The notes beneath the pieces were generated by a model that worked only from the letters and a program-made list of their open reading frames with translations, had not been told where the DNA came from and did not search any database. A stretch of 44,535 nucleotides of DNA from a virus, in the IMG/VR virus record IMGVR_UViG_3300025785_000033, positions 1 through 44,535 of that record; one strand, written 5' to 3'. Shown one piece after another: positions 35,806-44,224 of the stretch; position 1 is the first letter of the stretch; each line of letters begins with the position of its first letter. The position numbers were made by a program, and so were the translations under genes.

Positions 35806-35880
35806 TGGTCTGTGCGGCTGGATTCGAACCAGCGACCCCTCGTTTCCAAAACGAGAACGCTACCACTGCGCTACGCACAG
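35806..35880 (-). tRNA. tRNA-Pro(TGG)
   Basis: 75 nt with encoded CCA. All arms pair well: acceptor CTGTGCG/CGCACAG, D-arm GCGC/GCGT, anticodon arm CTCGT-TTTGGAA-ACGAG (anticodon TGG, codon CCA family), T-arm GCTGG-TTCGAAT-CCAGC. It is placed at the head of the minus-strand late region, 27 nt upstream of tRNA-Tyr, so both may be processed from the late transcript leader. Confidence 0.93.
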
Positions 35881-36050
35881 AGATCTTGGGTTCCGGTTGG
35901 ATTGGGGTTTTCATGATGTTGCGGATTGTAAACTTATTTTGGCGTGTTGGATACTTAAAAGTTGTTGGTTGGGCCCGACTCACTATGCGGTGTGGCCACA
36001 CGCGGAACTTAATCGCGCTGCCGGGGGCGGGTTATCACAACCAACACGAC

Positions 36051-36109
36051 TGAGGACTGGTAGGGGGCACTGCCCTTCTATGCTCCGGCACTCTCGGAGC
36101 CAATCCTCA
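36051..36109. ncRNA. Compact folded element (RNA-like)
   Basis: TGAGGA (36051) pairs with TCCTCA (36104), enclosing a GGGC/GCCC hairpin and the hairpin GCTCCG-GCACTCT-CGGAGC. Strand is undetermined. It is too short for a full tRNA and lacks a T-arm. Possible tRNA remnant or phage small RNA. Confidence 0.3.
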
Positions 36110-36121
36110 TGCGTCTTGGTT

Positions 36122-36193
36122 GTTGGTGTCTGGGATTTGCACCCAGTTGCCTACCCTTGTCAGGTTGTGCTTCGCTAGAGCACCCCCACCAAC
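36122..36193 (-). pseudogene. tRNA-like pseudogene (72 nt)
   Basis: On the minus strand: acceptor GTTGGTG/CACCAAC (7 bp), D-like stem GTGC/GCAC, T-like arm CTGGG-TGCAAAT-CCCAG. The anticodon segment ACAACCTGACAAGGGTAGG resembles a valine GAC arm with a deletion and cannot form a normal 5-bp stem with a 7-nt loop. The T-loop lacks TTC. Probably decayed. Confidence 0.4.
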
Positions 36194-36211
36194 AAACATA
36201 GTGTACACCGT

Positions 36212-36422: not shown

Positions 36423-36431
36423 TGCTATAAT
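36423..36431 (+). promoter_or_regulatory. Extended -10 promoter of the early region
   Basis: TGCTATAAT, a perfect extended -10 box without a clear -35. Predicted start is near 36438. The leader contains an inverted repeat TAACGAA/TTCGTTA (36437-36443, 36459-36465) and then palindrome copy 1. A very similar box (TGCTATACT) precedes the gene at 38012. Confidence 0.6.
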
Positions 36432-36466
36432 GAGTGTAACGAATCGGAATGGTTCTGGTTCGTTAT

Positions 36467-36483
36467 GGGGTCACGTTGACCCC
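36467..36483. repeat. GGGGTCA-CGT-TGACCCC palindrome, copy 1
   Basis: Perfect 7-bp arms. It lies in the leader between the extended -10 box and the first early ATG (36506), followed by GAATCTTTTAAAGG that includes the ribosome site. Confidence 0.92.
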
Positions 36484-36505
36484 GAATCTTTTAAAGGTAC
36501 ACATC

Positions 36506-36910
36506 ATGACTACTCTCAATACTCTCATCACCACTCTGCTCAAAACAGATGACAAGCAACAACTCACCGTTGACCAAATTGCGGCAGAGGCGGCGCGAAT
36601 CACGTTTGACGAATACCGCGCCATTGTCGTGGCCGTTTGTGAAAAGCATTACACCGTAAAAGCCCATAAGTCCAAGCAAGGCGACTACCTCACATTCACC
36701 AAGGAATCCGCGCCTGAGCAAAAAATGACGCGTTTGCTCAAGTTGCACCCTAACCGCCCCCAAGGTAAAGCACCCACGCAATCACGCAAGGTTGTCGCGC
36801 CCAAGGCATTGGTGTCTAGCGTGACCAAAGAAGTTATCGCGGCAGGCTTGACCAAGGCCGAATTCAATGCCTTTATCGTGGCGTTGAAGGCTTCGGTGTC
36901 GTTTGAATGA
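36506..36910 (+). CDS. First early gene, unknown basic protein
   Basis: 134 residues from ATG 36506 (AAAGG upstream). MTTLNTLITTLLKTDDKQQLTVDQIAAEAARITFDEYRAIVVAVCEKHYTVKAHKSKQGDYLTFTKE: the first 65 residues look like a small helical, possibly winged-helix, domain. A basic linker and a helix (TKEVIAAGLTKAEFNAFIVALKAS) follow. Strong promoter and first position suggest a host-takeover or regulatory role, by inference only. Confidence 0.72.
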   Translation: MTTLNTLITTLLKTDDKQQLTVDQIAAEAARITFDEYRAIVVAVCEKHYTVKAHKSKQGDYLTFTKESAPEQKMTRLLKLHPNRPQGKAPTQSRKVVAPKALVSSVTKEVIAAGLTKAEFNAFIVALKASVSFE

Positions 36911-36913
36911 TTG

Positions 36914-36930
36914 GGGGTCACGCTGACCCC
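36914..36930. repeat. GGGGTCA-CGC-TGACCCC palindrome, copy 2
   Basis: Starts 4 nt after the stop of the first early gene. Flanks extend the dyad (TTG…GAA). Confidence 0.92.
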
Positions 36931-36939
36931 GAAAACGTG

Positions 36940-36967
36940 GCGGCGCGGGAATGTGAGGCCGCGCCGC
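36940..36967 (+). other. GC-rich hairpin after palindrome copy 2
   Basis: GCGGCGCGG and CCGCGCCGC, 9-bp perfect stem with a 10-nt loop, no T-tract. It is flanked by a direct repeat AAAACGTG (36932-36939 and 36973-36980). Precedes the zinc-finger gene. Confidence 0.7.
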
Positions 36968-37000
36968 TGTTCCAAAACGTGTCAAGCACAAAGGTAAACC

Positions 37001-37195
37001 ATGCACCACTGCACAAAATGCGGCGATGCCGTGCGCCCACAACGCTGGGCGTTGGGCTTCAAACTCTGCCTATCCTGCGGCGAAACCCACGCGCAACAAC
37101 GCCGCCACACTGTTGTTCCCCTGAACAAATCAAACTACATCATGGTGACTGACCTTGCCATGCTCTCTCAACTTAACCCCAAACGCACGACCTGA
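37001..37195 (+). CDS. Small zinc-finger phage protein
   Basis: 64 residues. HHCTKCGDAVRPQRWALGFKLCLSCGETHAQQRRHTVVPLNKSNYIMVTD has two CxxC knuckles (C4/C7 and C23/C26). The remainder (VPLNKSNYIMVTDLAMLSQLNPK) matches a conserved small phage protein type found in early regions. Likely nucleic-acid or protein binding. SD AAAGGT. Confidence 0.8.
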   Translation: MHHCTKCGDAVRPQRWALGFKLCLSCGETHAQQRRHTVVPLNKSNYIMVTDLAMLSQLNPKRTT

Positions 37196-37205
37196 AAGGT
37201 ATCCC

Positions 37206-37382
37206 ATGACTTCCAAACTCGCGCTGGCCTATTCGCTGGCAATAACAACACTTCTATTCGGCTTGGCTGTTGGCGTCTCTGGCCTTGCTCAATACGAGGG
37301 CGGCTACCTTTGGCTCACTCTCACCATTGGTTGCCCCTTCCTCCTCGGCTCGGTTCTCACCCTCTTAATCAACGAATTCTAA
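37206..37382 (+). CDS. Small membrane protein, two transmembrane helices
   Basis: 58 residues from ATG 37206 (GAAAGGT upstream). Hydrophobic segments at about 6-27 (LALAYSLAITTLLFGLAVGVSGL) and about 34-54 (LWLTLTIGCPFLLGSVLTLLI). It could be an early inner-membrane protein, for example for superinfection exclusion; a holin is less likely since lysis genes are elsewhere. Confidence 0.68.
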   Translation: MTSKLALAYSLAITTLLFGLAVGVSGLAQYEGGYLWLTLTIGCPFLLGSVLTLLINEF

Positions 37383-37391
37383 GGACTCATC

Positions 37392-37622
37392 ATGCGCAAT
37401 ACAACACAACCCACAATCGAACACATGGGCACGTTCACCTTCCCTATCCACGGCGAATACAACGTCATGTACTACTACCCCAAAGGCAAAGCACAACCCG
37501 ACTTCTTTCTTGTCAACGTCTATCGCAAGAACAGTTCACGCGGCCTATGCTTGAGTGGTGAAGCCGCCTTCGAAGCATGGCTAGAGAAGATGCAAGCTCC
37601 CATTCAAATGAAGCTGTGCTAA
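37392..37622 (+). CDS. Unknown small early protein
   Basis: 76 residues, SD AAGGA. FTFPIHGEYNVMYYYPKGKAQPDFFLVNVYRKNSSRGLCLSGEAAFEAWLEKMQ looks like a compact alpha/beta fold. No family recognised. Closely spaced (9 nt) after the membrane protein gene. Confidence 0.68.
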   Translation: MRNTTQPTIEHMGTFTFPIHGEYNVMYYYPKGKAQPDFFLVNVYRKNSSRGLCLSGEAAFEAWLEKMQAPIQMKLC

Positions 37623-37625
37623 TTG

Positions 37626-37642
37626 GGGGTCAACCTGACCCC
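37626..37642. repeat. GGGGTCA-ACC-TGACCCC palindrome, copy 3
   Basis: Starts 4 nt past the preceding stop and marks the left border of the origin-like segment. Confidence 0.92.
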
Positions 37643-37647
37643 AAAAG

Positions 37648-37689
37648 GTGCGATATCCCTAAAAATCAAGGTAGGAGTGGATATCGCAC
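37648..37689. repeat. 11-bp perfect inverted repeat
   Basis: GTGCGATATCC (37648-37658) and GGATATCGCAC (37679-37689), 20-nt spacer. It can form a hairpin directly after palindrome copy 3. Confidence 0.88.
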
Positions 37690-37693
37690 ATTG

Positions 37694-37942
37694 GACAACA
37701 CTTCGGACACGCGGCAACCCGCATGGGCATTGGCTCTAGGTTAAAGCGTGTCCTAATATAATATCTATTAAAGTATATTCATATATATAGACAAGTGTTT
37801 ATTTGTTTGTTGTCCTTTGTCTTTGGCTAACCTTGGCTTAACCTTTAAACCCATTAGTATTGTTTTTAAACGATATAAAGTTGGACACTTTTTGCAAGAA
37901 ACCTAGCAACCATGCGGATTTTGGCGTGTCCGAAGTGTTGTC
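37694..37942. repeat. 19-bp perfect inverted repeat pair enclosing the AT-rich core
   Basis: GACAACACTTCGGACACGC at 37694-37712 and its exact reverse complement at 37924-37942, 211 bp apart. Each arm contains two GGACA-type motifs and TTCGGA. Such long exact arms are not expected by chance. Confidence 0.92.
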
Positions 37943-37969
37943 TACTTTGCGGTATCCAGCCCCAATACC

Positions 37970-37978
37970 TGCTATACT
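37970..37978 (+). promoter_or_regulatory. Extended -10 promoter
   Basis: TGCTATACT, differing at one position from the box at 36423. Predicted start near 37985, 27 nt before ATG 38012. Confidence 0.5.
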
Positions 37979-38011
37979 TGCCCGACATTGTTTTTTAACA
38001 GGAGATATCTG

Positions 38012-38815
38012 ATGTACTACAAGCACAGGCAATATATGGGTATGACGCAAAACGAATTGCTCACCCACCTGACCCGACAAAAGAAACCACCCCTCGTGAT
38101 TGAAACCATCATGAAAACTGTGGCCGAACAACAACGCAAACTGCGAACCGAGCGCATCACGCGGATACAACACGACCTATTGTGGGCGCCAATCATTGAC
38201 CCCGCCAAGCATGAACTACGCATTGTCGAGCGTATGCGTTGCACGAACACCGAAGATATCCCACGCCAAGAAGCATTGGATAGGTACGCCGAAGTACTGC
38301 GCGAACTGCTCGGGGTGCTGACTCTTGCGCGGCGCAAGCATGGCGTTGTGCCTTCCAAGCTACGAGAAAAGCTAGAGCGCAAGGGAATTCCTATTCCCAA
38401 CAAAGGCCACCACTGGGTCGATTGGGTATCCGAGAGCGACAAGGCCGAGGTGCGTGCGTTGTTCGATGCCATACCGTACAAGCAATACGCCAAACGCAAG
38501 ACGCCCTTCGAGCGCACGATACCCAAGGGTGAGGGCTGGCGCGACAAACGCAACAAGCTACAAAAACGCACAGAACTAGAGTTGGCTAAAGCCGAGCACG
38601 ACCTGCTCGCTATCCGCATGATGAAGATGGAAGACAAGAGCGCCGCCATACGCAAGCGCATAGCCAAGCACGAAGACTCTATTGCCAAGATGAGGCAGGT
38701 GTTGTTGTGGGTACGTGACGCCGAGGAAGGCGAAGCCTTGCCGCCAACATGGAGTGGGTACTACCTGACACGCGAGGAGTTCGCGCAAACGCCAACCATT
38801 CTGGAACGCCTTTAA
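38012..38815 (+). CDS. Unknown basic helical protein next to the origin-like segment
   Basis: 267 residues from ATG 38012 (AGGAG upstream; a frame start at 37988 lacks a site). Basic and mostly helical: RKLRTERITRIQHDLLWAPIIDPAKHELRIVERMRC, ARRKHGVVPSKLREKLERKGIPIPNKGHHWVDWVSESDKAEVRALFDAI, and a coiled coil (ELELAKAEHDLLAIRMMKMEDKSAAIRKRIAKHEDSIAKMRQVLLW). It is the first gene after the GGACA-motif region, so DNA binding there is worth testing. Family not recognised. Confidence 0.7.
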   Translation: MYYKHRQYMGMTQNELLTHLTRQKKPPLVIETIMKTVAEQQRKLRTERITRIQHDLLWAPIIDPAKHELRIVERMRCTNTEDIPRQEALDRYAEVLRELLGVLTLARRKHGVVPSKLREKLERKGIPIPNKGHHWVDWVSESDKAEVRALFDAIPYKQYAKRKTPFERTIPKGEGWRDKRNKLQKRTELELAKAEHDLLAIRMMKMEDKSAAIRKRIAKHEDSIAKMRQVLLWVRDAEEGEALPPTWSGYYLTREEFAQTPTILERL

Positions 38816-38848
38816 CGGATGTCAATTTTTAGGGGTCAACGTGACCCC
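38813..38848. repeat. Composite stop-codon module with palindrome copy 4
   Basis: TAACGGATGTCA (stop codon of the previous gene included) followed by a T-rich linker and GGGGTCA-ACG-TGACCCC (38832-38848). The segment from the stop codon onward is about 85% identical over 41 bp to 42588-42628. Confidence 0.88.
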
Positions 38849-38854
38849 GAATCG

Positions 38855-38886
38855 GGGAGCGCATGGTTTAGCCGCGCCGCGCTCCC
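38855..38886 (+). other. GC-rich hairpin after palindrome copy 4
   Basis: GGGAGCGC and GCGCTCCC, 8-bp stem with a 16-nt loop. Lies between copy 4 and the ribosome site of the gene at 38918. Confidence 0.65.
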
Positions 38887-38917
38887 TGCCTGTACTAGCT
38901 GGCCGAAAGGGAATTGT

Positions 38918-39097
38918 ATGAGTCAAGAAACGAGTACCAACCAACCCATTGAAGGGTTTGAGTACCGCGTGTACACGCAAGACGGTGAGTTGTTGCTGGT
39001 GACTAACAAGTACCGCATAGCCAACGACTACGCGCTGGGATACCAAACACGCACAGGCGAGACGGTGGTTGTGAAAACTAACAGAAAGGAGAACTAA
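38918..39097 (+). CDS. Unknown small early protein
   Basis: 59 residues from ATG 38918 (GAAAGGGAA upstream). IEGFEYRVYTQDGELLLVTNKYRIANDYALGYQTRTGETVVVKTNRKEN: predicted beta-rich, similar in style to small phage early proteins. Directly abuts the next ATG. Confidence 0.66.
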   Translation: MSQETSTNQPIEGFEYRVYTQDGELLLVTNKYRIANDYALGYQTRTGETVVVKTNRKEN

Positions 39098-39430
39098 ATG
39101 GAAAACTTCTTTGAGAAATTTCACGGGCGCGAACTGCGCCGCCTCATCAAGTGCATCACCAAGCTAGAGGCCGAAGGCTTGACCACCACTAGGTACACAG
39201 ACGCAGGTATCAACCCTAACTCGGGCAATGTGTATGTGTATGACGAAGGATGGAGCGCGTGTATCTTCATTGGTAGCGAAGGCTCAGAACCAACGTGGTG
39301 CTACCCATGTTTCGAGTGCGGAGAAGAACATATGTTCGACACGCATAAAGAAGCGCAGGAGTACGAGCAGACCTACGACCACCAATGCAAATCGTGTAAC
39401 CCAAAAGAAAGAGAGGAGATCACAAAGTGA
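39098..39430 (+). CDS. Unknown early protein with Cys-rich putative zinc site
   Basis: 110 residues, SD AAGGAG. N-terminal helix FFEKFHGRELRRLIKCITKLEAEG, beta segment NVYVYDEGWSACIFIG, then WCYPCFECGEEHMFDTHKEAQEYEQTYDHQCKSCNPKE with two CxxC groups that could bind zinc. Stop TGA forms the start of TGACGGGTGTCA. Function unknown. Confidence 0.68.
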   Translation: MENFFEKFHGRELRRLIKCITKLEAEGLTTTRYTDAGINPNSGNVYVYDEGWSACIFIGSEGSEPTWCYPCFECGEEHMFDTHKEAQEYEQTYDHQCKSCNPKEREEITK

Positions 39431-39439
39431 CGGGTGTCA
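39428..39439. repeat. TGACGGGTGTCA element embedding a stop codon
   Basis: TGAC-GGGT-GTCA dyad including the stop codon; identical 12-mer at 42588-42599 and a variant at 38813-38824. Confidence 0.85.
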
Positions 39440-39458
39440 GTCCCTTACTGACGTTTTT
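39436..39458 (+). terminator. Intrinsic terminator
   Basis: GTCAGT-CCCTT-ACTGAC (6-bp stem) followed by GTTTTT, 5 nt after the stop of the 110-residue gene. It directly precedes palindrome copy 5, so expression of the amidoligase probably depends on readthrough or on a start within the short gap. Confidence 0.75.
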
Positions 39459-39459
39459 A

Positions 39460-39476
39460 GGGGTCAAGCTGACCCC
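39460..39476. repeat. GGGGTCA-AGC-TGACCCC palindrome, copy 5
   Basis: Perfect arms; lies between the terminator and the ribosome site of the amidoligase gene (ATG 39507). Confidence 0.92.
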
Positions 39477-39506
39477 AAATGTTTTTCATCAACTAGGAGA
39501 ATTCAA

Positions 39507-41354
39507 ATGAAACTTTATTTCGCAACCTTTCAAACCAATGATTCTTTCGATACACCAAAACGGAGATCGCACACGGTGCTCATCGCAGAGCAAATCGAAA
39601 TCAGAAATGACCAAAGCCACCGCAAAATCTATGCAGGCTTGTACGCAAGCACATCGACCACAAACCGTAGAACCTCGCTGTTCACAAACCGCGCTACCCG
39701 TTTCAACCCAGAAAACCTGCACGTGCTGAGTGCAAGCACAGAAGAAAGTCCAGAAGATTTTATACATACCCACTACGGCCATATCACTAGCGAAAACCTG
39801 CAAGTCACCGAACTGACGCCCATTCAAATGCGTTGGCTTAGTGACCCCGAGCAAGGTTTGGGGGTCAAGATCAAGTTATTTGACCGTATGTACATGAACA
39901 CCGTTGGCCCTGTGGACAAATTCATAAGCCGTGTCACGCGGCAGATGAGAGAGCGCCTCGACAAACCACGCCCATATGCAGTCTACAAAGGCACCATGTC
40001 CTACTCTGCGGCGGACTACAAGCACAGACAAGCTGTTACAGCCGCGTGTCACAACGCGATCAAGCAAGCCGTTGCAGACGATGACGTATCTGTGTTTGAC
40101 GACTGGATACACGAGCACTATGAAAACATGACTGTGCAAAACGGTCTATCCGATTGGTTTGACCGTGTTAAAGACTTCTTAGACGATAAGGGTTTGTACA
40201 CCGACCTAAAAGTTTGTGACTGCGGCCACATGGAGTACACAGGCGAGACGCATGATGTGCGTGACGATACGTGGTGCGATGCGTGCTTCCGTGATGATGC
40301 TGTATTCGTAGAGGATAGAAACGAGTACTGGTCGCGTGACGATGCGTACTGGAGCGACAACCACGATGCGTATTATTCCTATGACCGTGACTCTGACGAG
40401 GCTGACGAAGACGGAGACGATGGTGATCCCAGCGCCCTCATGGACTACTCGACCAACGTGCTCGACCATCTGAACCGAGACACATCGTTCACGCCAACAC
40501 CTTACAGCGACTTGCTCATGGGCATCGAGTTGGAGATTGGCGTAGGGGAGGACAACTACAAGCGCGATGCGGTATCCAAGATTCGCTCTGCCTTGGGCGA
40601 GGATTATGTGGTGTGTAAGTATGACGGCTCTTTGCCTGACGACGGCTTAGAGATCGTGACTGCACCGCGCCGACTGGCTCATCACATCGAGCAGTTCAAG
40701 GACTGGGTTGTGCCACAAGGGTTTCGGGCATGGGATGCCAAGCGTTGCGGTATGCACATCCACATCGACTCGCATGGCTTCTCCAAGCTGACGCTCGGTA
40801 AGTTTTTCATGTTCATCAACGCCGAGTCAAACGCAGACTTTGTGCGCCAGATCGCAGGTCGTCATCCAAACCGCGACAACCAAGCGCGTGAGTATTGCGC
40901 CGCCGAGCATCAAGACATCCTCACCAACCCGAGCAAGGCGTTGAAGGGTAAGTCAGATCAACGCTATCGCATGATTAACACGAACAACCTGACAGGCTCC
41001 GAGTGCAACCGACTAGGCCTCAAGGACAACTACAACCGCCGTGGCTACGACACTATCGAGCTTCGTATCTTCAGGGCTTCGCTCAAGAAAGAACGATTGC
41101 TTGCACAGATCGAGTGGACTCATGCGGTCGTGATGTTCTGTCGCACAGCATCGTGGCGTGACTTGAACGGTGAAGCGTTTGTTGCATGGCTCAAGACTAC
41201 CAACAATGCGTACTCGAACCTTGCCAAATGGTATGGCTTGAGCAAGCGCGTCAAGGAAGCAACGGCCACAACCTGCGAAGACGTAACCCCTGCGCCCGAG
41301 CCTGTGACTACCGAGTCGCGTGATGTGCAACGTGCCCAACGGGGGTCACTTTGA
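39507..41354 (+). CDS. Amidoligase (GS-fold COOH-NH2 ligase) with zinc-ribbon N-terminal part
   Basis: 615 residues from ATG 39507 (AGGAG upstream). Residues 1-230 are uncharacterised. C237/C239 and C257/C260 (VCDCG…WCDACF) form a likely zinc ribbon, followed by an aromatic/Asp-rich acidic linker (262-307). The catalytic part at about 335-570 has GIELEIG (339-345), DGSL (373-376), GLEIVTAP (380-387), CGMHIHID (414-421) and TIELRIFRASL (516-526), the signature set of glutamine-synthetase-like amidoligases. These use ATP to join a carboxylate to an amine. The class II amidotransferase gene at 41529 would supply ammonia. Substrate unknown. Confidence 0.85.
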   Translation: MKLYFATFQTNDSFDTPKRRSHTVLIAEQIEIRNDQSHRKIYAGLYASTSTTNRRTSLFTNRATRFNPENLHVLSASTEESPEDFIHTHYGHITSENLQVTELTPIQMRWLSDPEQGLGVKIKLFDRMYMNTVGPVDKFISRVTRQMRERLDKPRPYAVYKGTMSYSAADYKHRQAVTAACHNAIKQAVADDDVSVFDDWIHEHYENMTVQNGLSDWFDRVKDFLDDKGLYTDLKVCDCGHMEYTGETHDVRDDTWCDACFRDDAVFVEDRNEYWSRDDAYWSDNHDAYYSYDRDSDEADEDGDDGDPSALMDYSTNVLDHLNRDTSFTPTPYSDLLMGIELEIGVGEDNYKRDAVSKIRSALGEDYVVCKYDGSLPDDGLEIVTAPRRLAHHIEQFKDWVVPQGFRAWDAKRCGMHIHIDSHGFSKLTLGKFFMFINAESNADFVRQIAGRHPNRDNQAREYCAAEHQDILTNPSKALKGKSDQRYRMINTNNLTGSECNRLGLKDNYNRRGYDTIELRIFRASLKKERLLAQIEWTHAVVMFCRTASWRDLNGEAFVAWLKTTNNAYSNLAKWYGLSKRVKEATATTCEDVTPAPEPVTTESRDVQRAQRGSL

Positions 41355-41514
41355 CGCGGCAGTTAATGCCGCAGCAAATCGTATTCGTATGCAAATGCTG
41401 AACCAGCCCTCACCTCGTGTTGACCACAGTTCACTCACCTACACAGTATCGCGTGACGCCAACGGCCAGCTTTACTACAGCACTCTCACCCCTTTCAACC
41501 CAAACTACTTCTAA
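41323..41514 (+). CDS. Small ORF between amidoligase and amidotransferase
   Basis: 63 residues from ATG 41323 (a GTG lies one codon upstream), overlapping the amidoligase end by 32 bp. VPNGGHFDAAVNAAANRIRMQMLNQPSPRVDHSSLTYTVSRDANGQLYYSTLTPFNPNYF. The C-terminal beta hairpin looks plausible, but the ribosome site is weak. If real it is coupled to the ligase and might be a carrier or substrate peptide for the pair; that is speculation. Confidence 0.5.
   Translation: MCNVPNGGHFDAAVNAAANRIRMQMLNQPSPRVDHSSLTYTVSRDANGQLYYSTLTPFNPNYF
41342..41358. repeat. Degenerate palindrome, copy 6
   Basis: GGGGTCA-CTT-TGACGCG: left arm intact, right arm half. The TGAC of the right arm contains the amidoligase stop codon. 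It lies inside the small overlapping ORF. Confidence 0.6.
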
Positions 41515-41528
41515 CTAGGAAAATCATC

Positions 41529-42590
41529 ATGTGTTTAATCATCTCTGGTCAATCAAACAAAATCCGTTCAACCTTGCTGGACACTCACGGCTTGCTTGCG
41601 GATATCTACTCCTCCAACCCTGACGGTATCGGCATCATGTACGGCACATCCAAGGGTCTCAAGGCCAACAAGTTCTTACCCAAGAACATTGGCGAGGCAC
41701 GCAACATGATCGAGCGTATGCCGCAAGACGACCGTGATCTGGCGATTCACTTCCGCTGGACTACACACGGCCACACCGACTTGAGCAACTGCCATCCCTA
41801 TGACGTAGTGCCAGGCTTCATTGCAATGATGCACAACGGCGTACTGCACACAGGTAACGCGGCAGACACGGCGCGTAGCGATACGTATCACTTCATCAAG
41901 GACTACCTGCATGACACCGTAGTGAAGTATCCCGACATCGTGTACGACAAAGGCTTCTTGACAATGGTGGCCGAGTTCATTGGCGACAATCGCTTTGTGT
42001 TCATGAATGGCGAGGGGCGCATCAGCCACGTCAACTATGACCAAGGCGTTGAGCATGACGGTATGTGGTTCAGCAATACCTACGCATGGAAGCCAAGCAA
42101 ACTCATCCCCAACTACTACAAGTCAACCAAGCGTGCGTGGCATGGTCATCTCTCCAATGGCTACGAGATGTGGGATGAGGATGAGGAGATCATCGGCTCA
42201 TGGTCTAGTGCTGGCACCGAGTTCACATCGACCAAGGGCATCCACGCTATGACTGACAACGAGTTTGCAAAACAAGAATCAAAGATAGAAGCGCCTTTCG
42301 CATACGAGCTTGGTGACGCGCTGATGCAAGCGGATGCAGAACTGTTGTCGGCGTACTTCGATGAGATGCCTATAACTTGTATCAACATCATTATGGGTAC
42401 ATTCGAGGCCACGTTGACAACACACAACGCAACAAATGACTTCGAGGCCGAGGTGATCGCGGCGTGTCTGGACAACGACATAGCCACCATGCACGACTTC
42501 GTGCGTAACGACCCCGAGACTGTTGCGGAAGTCATGTGTTGGCATCTGAACTGGGCGTACCAACCATCGAAAGTACCCGCGCTCGTTTGA
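41529..42590 (+). CDS. Class II glutamine amidotransferase (Ntn hydrolase)
   Basis: 353 residues. Cys2 directly after Met is the N-terminal nucleophile (MCLII). Family motifs follow: DGIGIMYG (32-39), AIHFRWTTHGHTDLSNCHP (72-90; the Arg and Thr-His-Gly that bind glutamine), GFIAMMHNGVL (96-106; oxyanion-hole Asn-Gly). This is the GATase-II set of GlmS, PurF and GlxB-like proteins. It hydrolyses glutamine to give ammonia. The C-terminal 130 residues are unassigned. Paired with the amidoligase upstream, it suggests amide or isopeptide formation on an unknown acceptor. Confidence 0.87.
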   Translation: MCLIISGQSNKIRSTLLDTHGLLADIYSSNPDGIGIMYGTSKGLKANKFLPKNIGEARNMIERMPQDDRDLAIHFRWTTHGHTDLSNCHPYDVVPGFIAMMHNGVLHTGNAADTARSDTYHFIKDYLHDTVVKYPDIVYDKGFLTMVAEFIGDNRFVFMNGEGRISHVNYDQGVEHDGMWFSNTYAWKPSKLIPNYYKSTKRAWHGHLSNGYEMWDEDEEIIGSWSSAGTEFTSTKGIHAMTDNEFAKQESKIEAPFAYELGDALMQADAELLSAYFDEMPITCINIIMGTFEATLTTHNATNDFEAEVIAACLDNDIATMHDFVRNDPETVAEVMCWHLNWAYQPSKVPALV

Positions 42591-42624
42591 CGGGTGTCAA
42601 TCTTTGGGGGTCAACGCGACCCCC
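42588..42624. repeat. Composite stop-codon module with variant palindrome, copy 7
   Basis: TGACGGGTGTCA (42588-42599, containing the amidotransferase stop) then GGGGGTC-AACGC-GACCCCC (42606-42624). The dyad is kept, but the inner TGA arm is CGA. Closely related to the module at 38813. Confidence 0.85.
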
Positions 42625-43891: not shown

Positions 43892-44224
43892 ATGGACGAA
43901 AACAAAAAAGTCTACGCGCTACTGGGGCAGCACGTGGAGTTCAACAAAGTGGATACGTTGTGGGTCGCAGTCATCCCCGATCGCACCATGATCGCAATGG
44001 AAGAACACCAAGCGCCGTTGTTGTCGCAAGACATTGACTGCCTATTGTTGACTGTGCGTACTAGCAACTGTTTGCGTGCCGAGAAAATCAACACGGTCAG
44101 GCAGTTACTCGATATGCGCGAACGCGACTTGTTGGTCATCCCAAACTTTGGCCGCAGGTGTTTAGATGATGTGAAGCAAGCCCTTGCCGAACATGATTTT
44201 TATTTAAAAGGAGATAAGAAATGA
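43892..44224 (+). CDS. Phage protein with RNA polymerase alpha-subunit C-terminal domain (alpha-CTD-like)
   Basis: 110 residues. Residues about 51-108 read LLLTVRTSNCLRAEKINTVRQLLDMRERDLLVIPNFGRRCLDDVKQAL, matching bacterial RpoA alpha-CTD (LTVRSANCLKAE…[20 protein letters not shown]). The DNA-contacting set is kept: Arg56 (E. coli R265), Asn59 (N268), Cys60, Leu61, Arg62 (K271) and GRR at 87-89 (GKK). The 50-residue N-terminal part is unrelated to alpha. Probably a monomeric decoy or adaptor that binds UP elements or activators. Overlaps the next ATG by 4 bp. Confidence 0.85.
   Translation: MDENKKVYALLGQHVEFNKVDTLWVAVIPDRTMIAMEEHQAPLLSQDIDCLLLTVRTSNCLRAEKINTVRQLLDMRERDLLVIPNFGRRCLDDVKQALAEHDFYLKGDKK

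Follow-up and report, generated by a model that had tools for sequence, protein, structure and literature searches.

In phage lambda, the regulators CI and Cro bind palindromic operators that overlap promoters, regulate their own expression and read the DNA with a recognition helix. In nut/boxB antitermination, the early leaders hold phage-specific hairpins, and the conserved loop of boxB is read by the N protein. Another arrangement is described for the stoperators of Cluster A mycobacteriophages, where one phage protein acts at many sites lying in the transcribed arm away from promoters (PMC6550527). The stoperators have a 13-bp core, number 20–30 per genome and lie mostly in one orientation (PMC6550527), the sites are asymmetric, the repressor binding them as a monomer that carries two DNA-binding domains (PMC9283540), and the site consensus is group-specific, correlates with the repressor and bears on superinfection (PMC6550527; PMC9283540). 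Here we describe a set of palindromes, GGGGTCA-N3-TGACCCC, in the 44,535 nucleotides of the virus record IMGVR_UViG_3300025785_000033 of IMG/VR (this whole stretch is called the window below), together with REG (36506-36910), the gene whose product is very probably, as judged by comparison among relatives, the DNA-binding protein that acts on these early-gene palindromes.

Across many related uncultured phages, REG and the palindrome appear to change together in a lock-and-key fashion. The system is like the Cluster A stoperators (L5 gp71-type) in that the site motif correlates with the sequence of the regulator. It is unlike them in that the sites are palindromes with centres in both orientations, in that there are 4–8 sites restricted to the early arm in the contigs tested, and in that no kinship of REG was detected with a profile run against PDB sequences, a search that held no direct comparison with gp71. 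The REG system would thus work like stoperators while standing outside that group, and its bound sites may also stop elongation. With CI and Cro it shares palindromic operators, a presumed dimer, presumed autoregulation and a specificity borne on a helix, whereas the REG sites lie after gene ends and in a leader, and no helix-turn-helix family was detected for REG. The likeness to nut/boxB consists in phage-specific, hairpin-capable repeats in early leaders; unlike in boxB, the centres here are free and inverting, and an RNA-type pair bias is absent.

The palindromes of the window

The window has the layout of a tailed-phage genome, with a late arm that runs leftward (genes for terminase, portal, major head protein and lysis-type functions) and a rightward early arm that starts near 36440. 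All seven palindromes lie inside the early arm, whose features are as follows.

36426..36431, plus strand: TATAAT, predicted -10 element of the early promoter, read from the sequence upstream of the leader palindrome
36438..36464, plus strand: leader inverted repeat AACGAA...TTCGTT, between the putative promoter and palindrome 1
36467..36483, plus strand: palindrome 1, centre CGT, in the REG leader
36506..36910, plus strand: REG, probable palindrome-binding regulator of 134 amino acids, flanked by palindromes and changing with their arms
36710..36739, plus strand: REG residues 69-78, predicted helix with Arg76 (codon 36731-36733), which tracks arm base 6
36914..36930, plus strand: palindrome 2, centre CGC, directly 3' of the REG stop
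37392..37622, plus strand: small early gene ending right before palindrome 3, from the list of open reading frames (ORFs) and from relatives
37626..37642, plus strand: palindrome 3, centre ACC, directly 3' of the preceding gene
38012..38815, plus strand: early gene, followed by palindrome 4
38832..38848, plus strand: palindrome 4, centre ACG, inverted to CGT in the relative L130 with nearly the same flanks
39460..39476, plus strand: palindrome 5, centre AGC, ahead of the amidoligase gene
39507..41354, plus strand: amidoligase-like gene (PF12224, E 2.8e-6)
41342..41358, plus strand: doubtful degenerate copy with two mismatches, within the end of the amidoligase ORF
41529..42590, plus strand: class II glutamine amidotransferase-like gene (PF13522, E 0.0086, below the curated cut-off)
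42607..42623, plus strand: palindrome 7, with a single A.C mismatch as read on the transcribed-sense strand, past the amidotransferase stop

A scan of the whole window recovered the five perfect copies reported in a first-pass annotation of this DNA (starts 36467, 36914, 37626, 38832 and 39460) and both of its degenerate copies, one with two mismatches at 41342 and one with a single mismatch, which starts at 42607 and not at 42606 as had been given. No eighth copy was found at up to three mismatches in the 44,535 bases scanned. At this threshold, shuffled versions of the window (n = 100) had a mean of 1.43 matches and a maximum of 6, and none of the 100 reached seven. The annotation had also noted that the late region is without full sites, which was confirmed in the window and in a longer contig of this phage (L073/L125, contig G006; 54,566 bases). 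The contig holds the identical seven sites and no additional site at up to two mismatches, so that none falls in the late arm or in the 10 kb that the window lacks.

Six sites had been placed at or just after stop codons and one in a leader. Five do follow stops, with gaps from the last base of the stop codon of 4 (36914), 4 (37626), 17 (38832), 30 (39460) and 17 bases (42607), and palindrome 1 lies in the leader, 22 bases ahead of the ATG of 36506, but the copy at 41342 overlaps the final codons of the amidoligase ORF (stop at 41354). This copy is doubtful, because the close relative L130, whose amidotransferase is 95% identical, has no site between 7971 and 11079. The flanks had been described as T-rich on the left and rAA on the right; they are conserved, but in a roughly symmetric manner, as a weak extension of the palindrome to TT.GGGGTCA...TGACCCC.AA.

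The hexamer TATAAT at 36426..36431 presumably represents the -10 element, from its match to the consensus, and a number of relatives have comparable hexamers (TATAAT, GATACT, TAAAAT), as seen by eye, ahead of their first palindrome. The repeat at 36438-36464 likewise has counterparts of different sequence, seen by eye, in a number of relatives; these repeats perhaps form a stem at the 5' end of the mRNA.

Palindromes with recoded arms in related phages

Relatives were fetched with the amidotransferase gene (the best 80 of 90 loci) and then scanned for any repeated perfect palindrome, whatever its arm letters. Among these loci the exact GGGGTCA motif is confined to the nearest relatives. The syntenic relatives carry 4–8 palindromes at shared gene boundaries, and the arm sequence is specific to each phage, with the types GGGGTCA, GGGGACA, GGGGAAA, GGGGAGA, GGGGAAC, GGGGTAG, GGGGGTA, CGGGGAC, TGGGACA, GTGGAAC, GGAGAGA, GAGAGAA and others, around centres of mostly 1–5 bases. 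The conservation of the motif that had been looked for in syntenic relatives therefore does not extend to the letters, but the sites are kept at the same boundaries with recoded arms. Lack of conservation would have misled as a sign against the motif, because the sites persist though the letters change, and conservation of letters was dropped as a test in relatives. A DNA scan with the GGGGTCA letters returned at least 119 loci. Most of these carry the motif once, which probably reflects chance, given the great size of the collection, and the comparison was continued with loci that had REG or more than one copy.

At least four sites were present in all 47 of the amidotransferase-fetched loci in which 6 kb or more of sequence precede that gene, near-identical contigs included. 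The same holds for 50 of the 62 loci of at least 9 kb, and the other 12 have no more than 3.5 kb upstream of that gene; dinucleotide shuffles of the 62 loci gave at most 2 sites. In the scan of loci of this length, 200 of 633 plus-strand ORFs of at least 100 amino acids end at a site. A census of gene boundaries was made after 13 near-identical or fragmentary loci had been left out, as they were from the 242-site tally given below. A site follows the REG stop by 0–13 bases in 39/39 phages, REG having partly been picked by ending near a site, and another lies ahead of the REG start in 31/39. Further shared places are after gene 38012 (38/41), before the amidoligase gene (34/41) and after gene 37392 (16/25), and less frequent ones are after the amidotransferase (19/41) and after the amidoligase gene (15/41). 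Together, these seven boundaries explain 192 of 245 sites.

The restriction to the early arm also holds in relatives scanned as long contigs. The perfect sites of G007, G009, G010, G015, G016 and G017 (40–61 kb) and of G011 (68 kb) lie in one stretch of ~3–8 kb, and G009 has one further match with two mismatches outside its site stretch. In G018 (63 kb) the sites lie near both contig ends, which fits a circularly permuted record. Several dispersed copies within one 3–8 kb stretch could also be expected of a DNA maintenance array, such as a centromere-like partition locus, a replication control region or a set of nucleoprotein sites, with REG as its binder, and an AT-rich stretch with 49-base inverted repeats (37678-37958) does lie inside the array. 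However, the sites track gene ends and do not cluster at the AT-rich stretch, no ParA-like gene was found among the proteins scanned (part of the genes only), and no match to the integrase family PF00589 was found in the 54.6 kb contig, itself of uncertain completeness. A maintenance array is thus improbable.

REG changes with the arms

The gene that changes with the arms was sought among phages of near-identical background. Between L148 and L149/L150, the amidotransferase is 98% identical, the amidoligase 93/90% and the winged-helix gene homologous to 42736 93/94%, whereas REG is just 45/39% identical and the arms are GGGGAAA vs GGGGACA. In pairs with the same arms, REG identity is 76% (window/L130), 71% (L179/L186) and 77% (L149/L150). 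In a wider comparison of 98 pairs with similar amidotransferases, in which the score ratio of the N-terminal part of REG was used, the median was 0.61 for the 20 same-arm pairs and 0.06 for the 78 different-arm pairs; the controls gave 0.70/0.66 (amidoligase) and 0.83/0.51 (38012). Mantel tests on 39 phages gave 0.48 for REG (partial 0.47, p 0.001) vs 0.19–0.29 for genes present in at least 33 phages.

Products of 36506, 38012 and 42736 had been proposed as candidate binders in the first-pass annotation, and the first of them is favoured here. The other two were rejected on the pair comparison: the winged-helix-like gene 42736 is nearly the same in L148 and L149/L150 despite their different arms, and gene 38012 is 27% identical between the window and L130, which have the same arms, and 96% identical between L183 and L186, whose arms differ. 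Gene 37392 is linked and correlates as well (Mantel 0.49), but the 25 phages of that test are all of the 41 in which the gene could be recognised, and it is 77–78% identical between L148 and L149/L150.

Searches with REG alignments of three types added 158 loci, and 150 of them have at least two copies of a palindrome of their own together with an ORF of 100–190 amino acids ending at a site, a count that rests on protein-fetched loci and also requires an ORF ending near a site. REG models match 149 of these 150 ORFs. In the GenBank phages MEP401 and MEP402 (isolates) and ctgrD200 (metagenome-derived), which have related amidoligase/amidotransferase genes, neither a REG match nor a palindrome family of more than three sites was found in the 15–16 kb examined.

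Correspondence of residues and bases

For the count of residues against bases, 125 distinct REG sequences were reduced to the 86 of types A and B; L345 (mis-parsed ORF) and L370 (helix unparsed) were dropped by hand, and types C and D, in which the alignment of the helix is less sure, were left out. Arm base 6 was scored as read after the G-run, and counts were corrected for ancestry by clustering alone. The residue at the position of window Arg76 agrees with arm base 6 in 86/86 proteins, with Arg and C in 59 and neither in 27. In the non-Arg classes, Asp goes with A (10), and Ala or Lys with A/G after T (17). The 86 proteins form 20 clusters at 60% identity, and one cluster has both states (L327 vs L314-L318), base and residue having switched together.

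Outside these types, FRDHI goes with GGGGAAC and FRYHI/FRFHI with GGGGAGA in type C, and in type D the helices PARMSWTRN and PARKSWGRN of L139/L141 go with GTGGAAC and GTGGGAC, arms that are one base apart. Ten loci fetched solely with the DNA pattern, which are not close relatives of the window, have a remote REG match. In eight of them (L031, L035, L036, L060, L084, L093, L096, L049) a palindrome lies 5–8 positions past the stop, and in L040 and L044 none was found 3' of the stop. L049 has Arg at the aligned position. The other seven break the rule, as described below, and the Arg-C rule is therefore local to types A and B. Taken with the pair comparison, the recognition of the palindrome arms by REG is strongly supported, as far as sequences can tell.

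In a different account, the palindromes would serve as terminators, either intrinsic or dependent on a host factor, or would be selfish repeats, and would have nothing to do with REG. Two of the seven window sites (36466, 39460) pass a loose terminator scan, T-runs follow the stem in some relatives, and families of palindromes occur with no REG match in ten control loci, L013 among them. Nothing requires terminators, however, to have common arm letters throughout one genome, to change them in concert or to match the residues of one phage gene. The absence of a family of more than three sites from the 15–16 kb examined of MEP401, MEP402 and ctgrD200, which have no REG match there, also speaks against this account, which is very improbable.

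Binding to DNA or to RNA

The fixed arms and free centre had been taken to suggest either a dimeric protein or an RNA stem recognised by a factor. If the palindrome were read as folded RNA, G-U departures would be expected to outnumber A-C ones on the transcript strand. In the 242 sites the arm departures were GT 19 and AC 11, and at position -1, just outside the arm, GT 28 and AC 69; among 575 distinct sites, those with a single departure gave GT 16 and AC 23. Orthologous sites with matching flanks had the same centre in 230 pairs, the exactly inverted centre in 42 and another in 49, these pairs being non-independent. The 42 make up nearly half of the 91 pairs with differing centres. In L237 vs L238 the centre is TT/AA, with zero differences over 30 flanking bases.

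These data bear on the possibility that REG recognises a hairpin which the palindrome forms in the mRNA, in the leader and between cistrons, and that it thereby acts on translation or on the stability of the message. The sites do lie in presumably transcribed stretches, many of them a few dozen bases before the next start codon, and the arms are able to form 7-bp stems. Yet the transcript strand has no excess of G-U over A-C, position -1 favours A-C, and the centres are inverted in 42/91 of the differing orthologous pairs. Several phages, moreover, have single-base centres (GGAGAGA-T-TCTCTCC, GGGGTCG-C-CGACCCC), too short for a loop unless pairs are opened. An RNA stem is therefore disfavoured and unlikely. 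Binding of DNA by a dimer is supported by the symmetry and the centre data, because no RNA-wobble bias is seen and the centres invert freely; the dimeric protein suggested in the first-pass annotation is thus well supported by comparison, and the product of 36506 is the likely one.

The REG protein

The relatives of REG are proteins of 130–160 amino acids. The AlphaFold2 model of window REG (mean pLDDT, the predicted local distance difference test score, 84) consists of two helical portions that a loosely structured linker connects (pLDDT <50 at 87-95); the N-terminal domain holds the helix 69-78, and the C-terminal part is a helical hairpin. A type C model has a similar outline (mean pLDDT 81). 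Foldseek found no match of these models in the PDB (best E 2.2 and 1.7), and none for REG in BFVD (best E 0.21); the best VIA score, Z 5.2 to the C-terminal domain of KaiA, is not telling. No Pfam, PHROG or NCBIfam family was found for window REG, nor any NCBIfam family for seven REG proteins, and the one weak match of 22 type A/B proteins in PHROGs and the one of 15 type C proteins in Pfam were both taken as chance. The REG proteins of L181, L084, the window and L160 had no tblastn match in 50,697 GenBank phage records. A REG profile run against PDB sequences returned five chains up to E 1 (best E 0.18), with no stoperator-repressor chain among them. No account of such a system was found among the top-ranked literature matches, most subscription journals lying outside the coverage.

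Proposed mechanism

We propose, with a probability of roughly 65% for the reading as a whole, that the palindromes are operators of a REG homodimer, which acts as a roadblock and on its own gene, and that the arms are recoded in escape from cross-silencing. REG, the first early gene, would make a sequence-specific DNA-binding protein, most likely a homodimer. The half-site would be about Y-GGGG-NNN, the helix near residues 69-78 would read the inner bases, and the centre would be a mere spacer. Bound REG would stand in the way of RNA polymerase in the leader and after genes, a role suggested by position, because palindrome 1 follows the likely start point of transcription by ~30–46 bases and most of the other sites come directly after stops within the transcribed early arm. 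In this manner REG would hold down its own expression and that of each gene further along. A regulon or insulator function, as had been suggested for the palindromes in the first-pass annotation, would be plausible.

By the same means REG would silence an incoming phage with matching operators, and because such operators would be silenced, selection for escape would drive the repeated recoding of arms and REG. We infer this selection from the speed of change and from the parallel with Cluster A mycobacteriophages. Template switching in the palindromes would copy a new base between the arms and also yield inverted centres; spacer inversion and arm homogenisation are described as signatures of a template switch between short inverted repeats (PMC8604942). 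Binding by REG is well supported by comparison, and its consequences are proposed from position and analogy.

Alternatively, REG might be an activator, antiterminator or elongation factor that is loaded at the palindromes and forms no roadblock. The sites lie inside apparent transcription units, one of them just past the likely start, and among the phage genes is one for an RNA polymerase alpha C-terminal domain (CTD), which would suit such a role. The rapid co-change of specificity, on the other hand, fits silencing under cross-immunity, by analogy with the mycobacteriophages (PMC6550527), and we regard a loaded factor as a poor prospect beside the roadblock.

Several observations weigh against the proposed operators of a REG roadblock. 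The roadblock itself is suggested by position alone, and no fold match to a known DNA-binding fold, such as helix-turn-helix, winged helix or ribbon-helix-helix, was obtained in the PDB, VIA or BFVD. Among control loci of at least 9 kb with no REG match, 10/49 hold a family of at least four sites, five of these families having GC-rich arms; the figure includes L013 (five sites) and is 9/48 without it. A site lies inside the REG ORF in seven phages. Two arm types are mixed in L200 (5419-11136), L159 (141-6506) and L139 (5240-11153), genomes possibly caught during recoding or after recombination. T-runs follow the palindrome in several relatives, and some sites may also be terminators. As to the residues, type C FRYHI pairs with two arm types (GGGGAGA, and GGAGAGA after other residues), and L031, L035, L036, L060, L084, L093 and L096 have Asp at the position and Arg one residue earlier with C as the arm base, so that most members of this remote marine group have Asp although the arm base is C.

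The covariation of REG and arms is also imperfect. L168 and L173 have the same arms, yet their REG proteins are 47% identical overall, the helix being nearly unchanged; in L137 and L144 the arm letters agree, around a centre of 1 base in one and 2 bases in the other, and REG is 52% identical. Same-arm REG scores are as low as 0.20, and three different-arm pairs score 0.68–0.90, all other different-arm pairs being at or below 0.41. A Mantel correlation of 0.14–0.39 remains in some genes after control for REG (37392 0.39, 42736 0.26, amidoligase 0.23), and in the 25 phages with gene 37392 the values fail to single out REG (REG 0.49, 37392 0.49, amidoligase 0.51, amidotransferase 0.50). It is therefore the close pairs and the helix residues, and not the Mantel test, that make the case for REG.

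It is possible, though we would put the odds somewhat against it, that REG represents a new family of DNA-binding regulators, with a fold unseen on DNA and a readable code from residue to base, which has diversified in uncultured aquatic phages. The operators would then be recoded in step across each genome, aided by template switching, so that phages in a shared host cell evade silencing by one another, and lytic phages would run an immunity-type specificity race without lysogeny.

Other features of the early region

Further features lie beside or among the palindromes.

35806..36211, minus strand: transfer RNA genes, called as tRNA-Pro (TGG) and tRNA-Ala (AGC), immediately to the left of the early promoter
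37678..37726 and 37910..37958: inverted repeat of 49 bases (84%) with an AT-rich core, past palindrome 3 and ahead of gene 38012
43892..44224, plus strand: protein of 110 amino acids with an RNA polymerase alpha CTD at residues 37-100 (PF03118, E 2.7e-20)

The 49-base inverted repeat with its AT-rich core is a possible replication origin, and TATATAT-type runs stand at about the equivalent place in L149, L150, L167, L168 and L173. The alpha CTD gene was present in 9 of 81 sources searched, many of them too short to reveal such a gene; a phage-encoded alpha CTD could redirect the RNA polymerase of the host. The amidoligase-like and amidotransferase-like genes form a pair (39507-42590), and related amidotransferase genes occur in the Methylophilales phages MEP401 and MEP402. 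An amidotransferase profile run against bacterial genomes gave 25 stretches, none confirmed as a relative. This result, like the lack of a PF00589 match in the 54.6 kb contig, bears on whether these phages might form lysogens, as those with a temperate immunity repressor do, and so does the gene content of the relative L160, which encodes a DNA polymerase A, a PD-(D/E)XK nuclease and an SNF2-type helicase. At 5229-9207 of L013 (contig G001), 25-base palindromes, TCACGGGGTCAC-N-GTGACCCCGTGA, lie around ORFs that look by eye like amidotransferase and amidoligase genes; no REG match was found at this locus, and perhaps another regulator uses the same plan there.

Significance

It is a long-standing question how DNA-binding specificity can change in concert with all the sites on which a regulator acts. 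The present phages offer more than 100 distinct regulator-operator pairs, some of them in near-identical backgrounds, and would thus amount to a natural experiment on the change of specificity. The REG/palindrome pairs may also serve as ready-made orthogonal regulator and operator parts, and the arm type is a possible marker of cross-immunity between uncultured phages.

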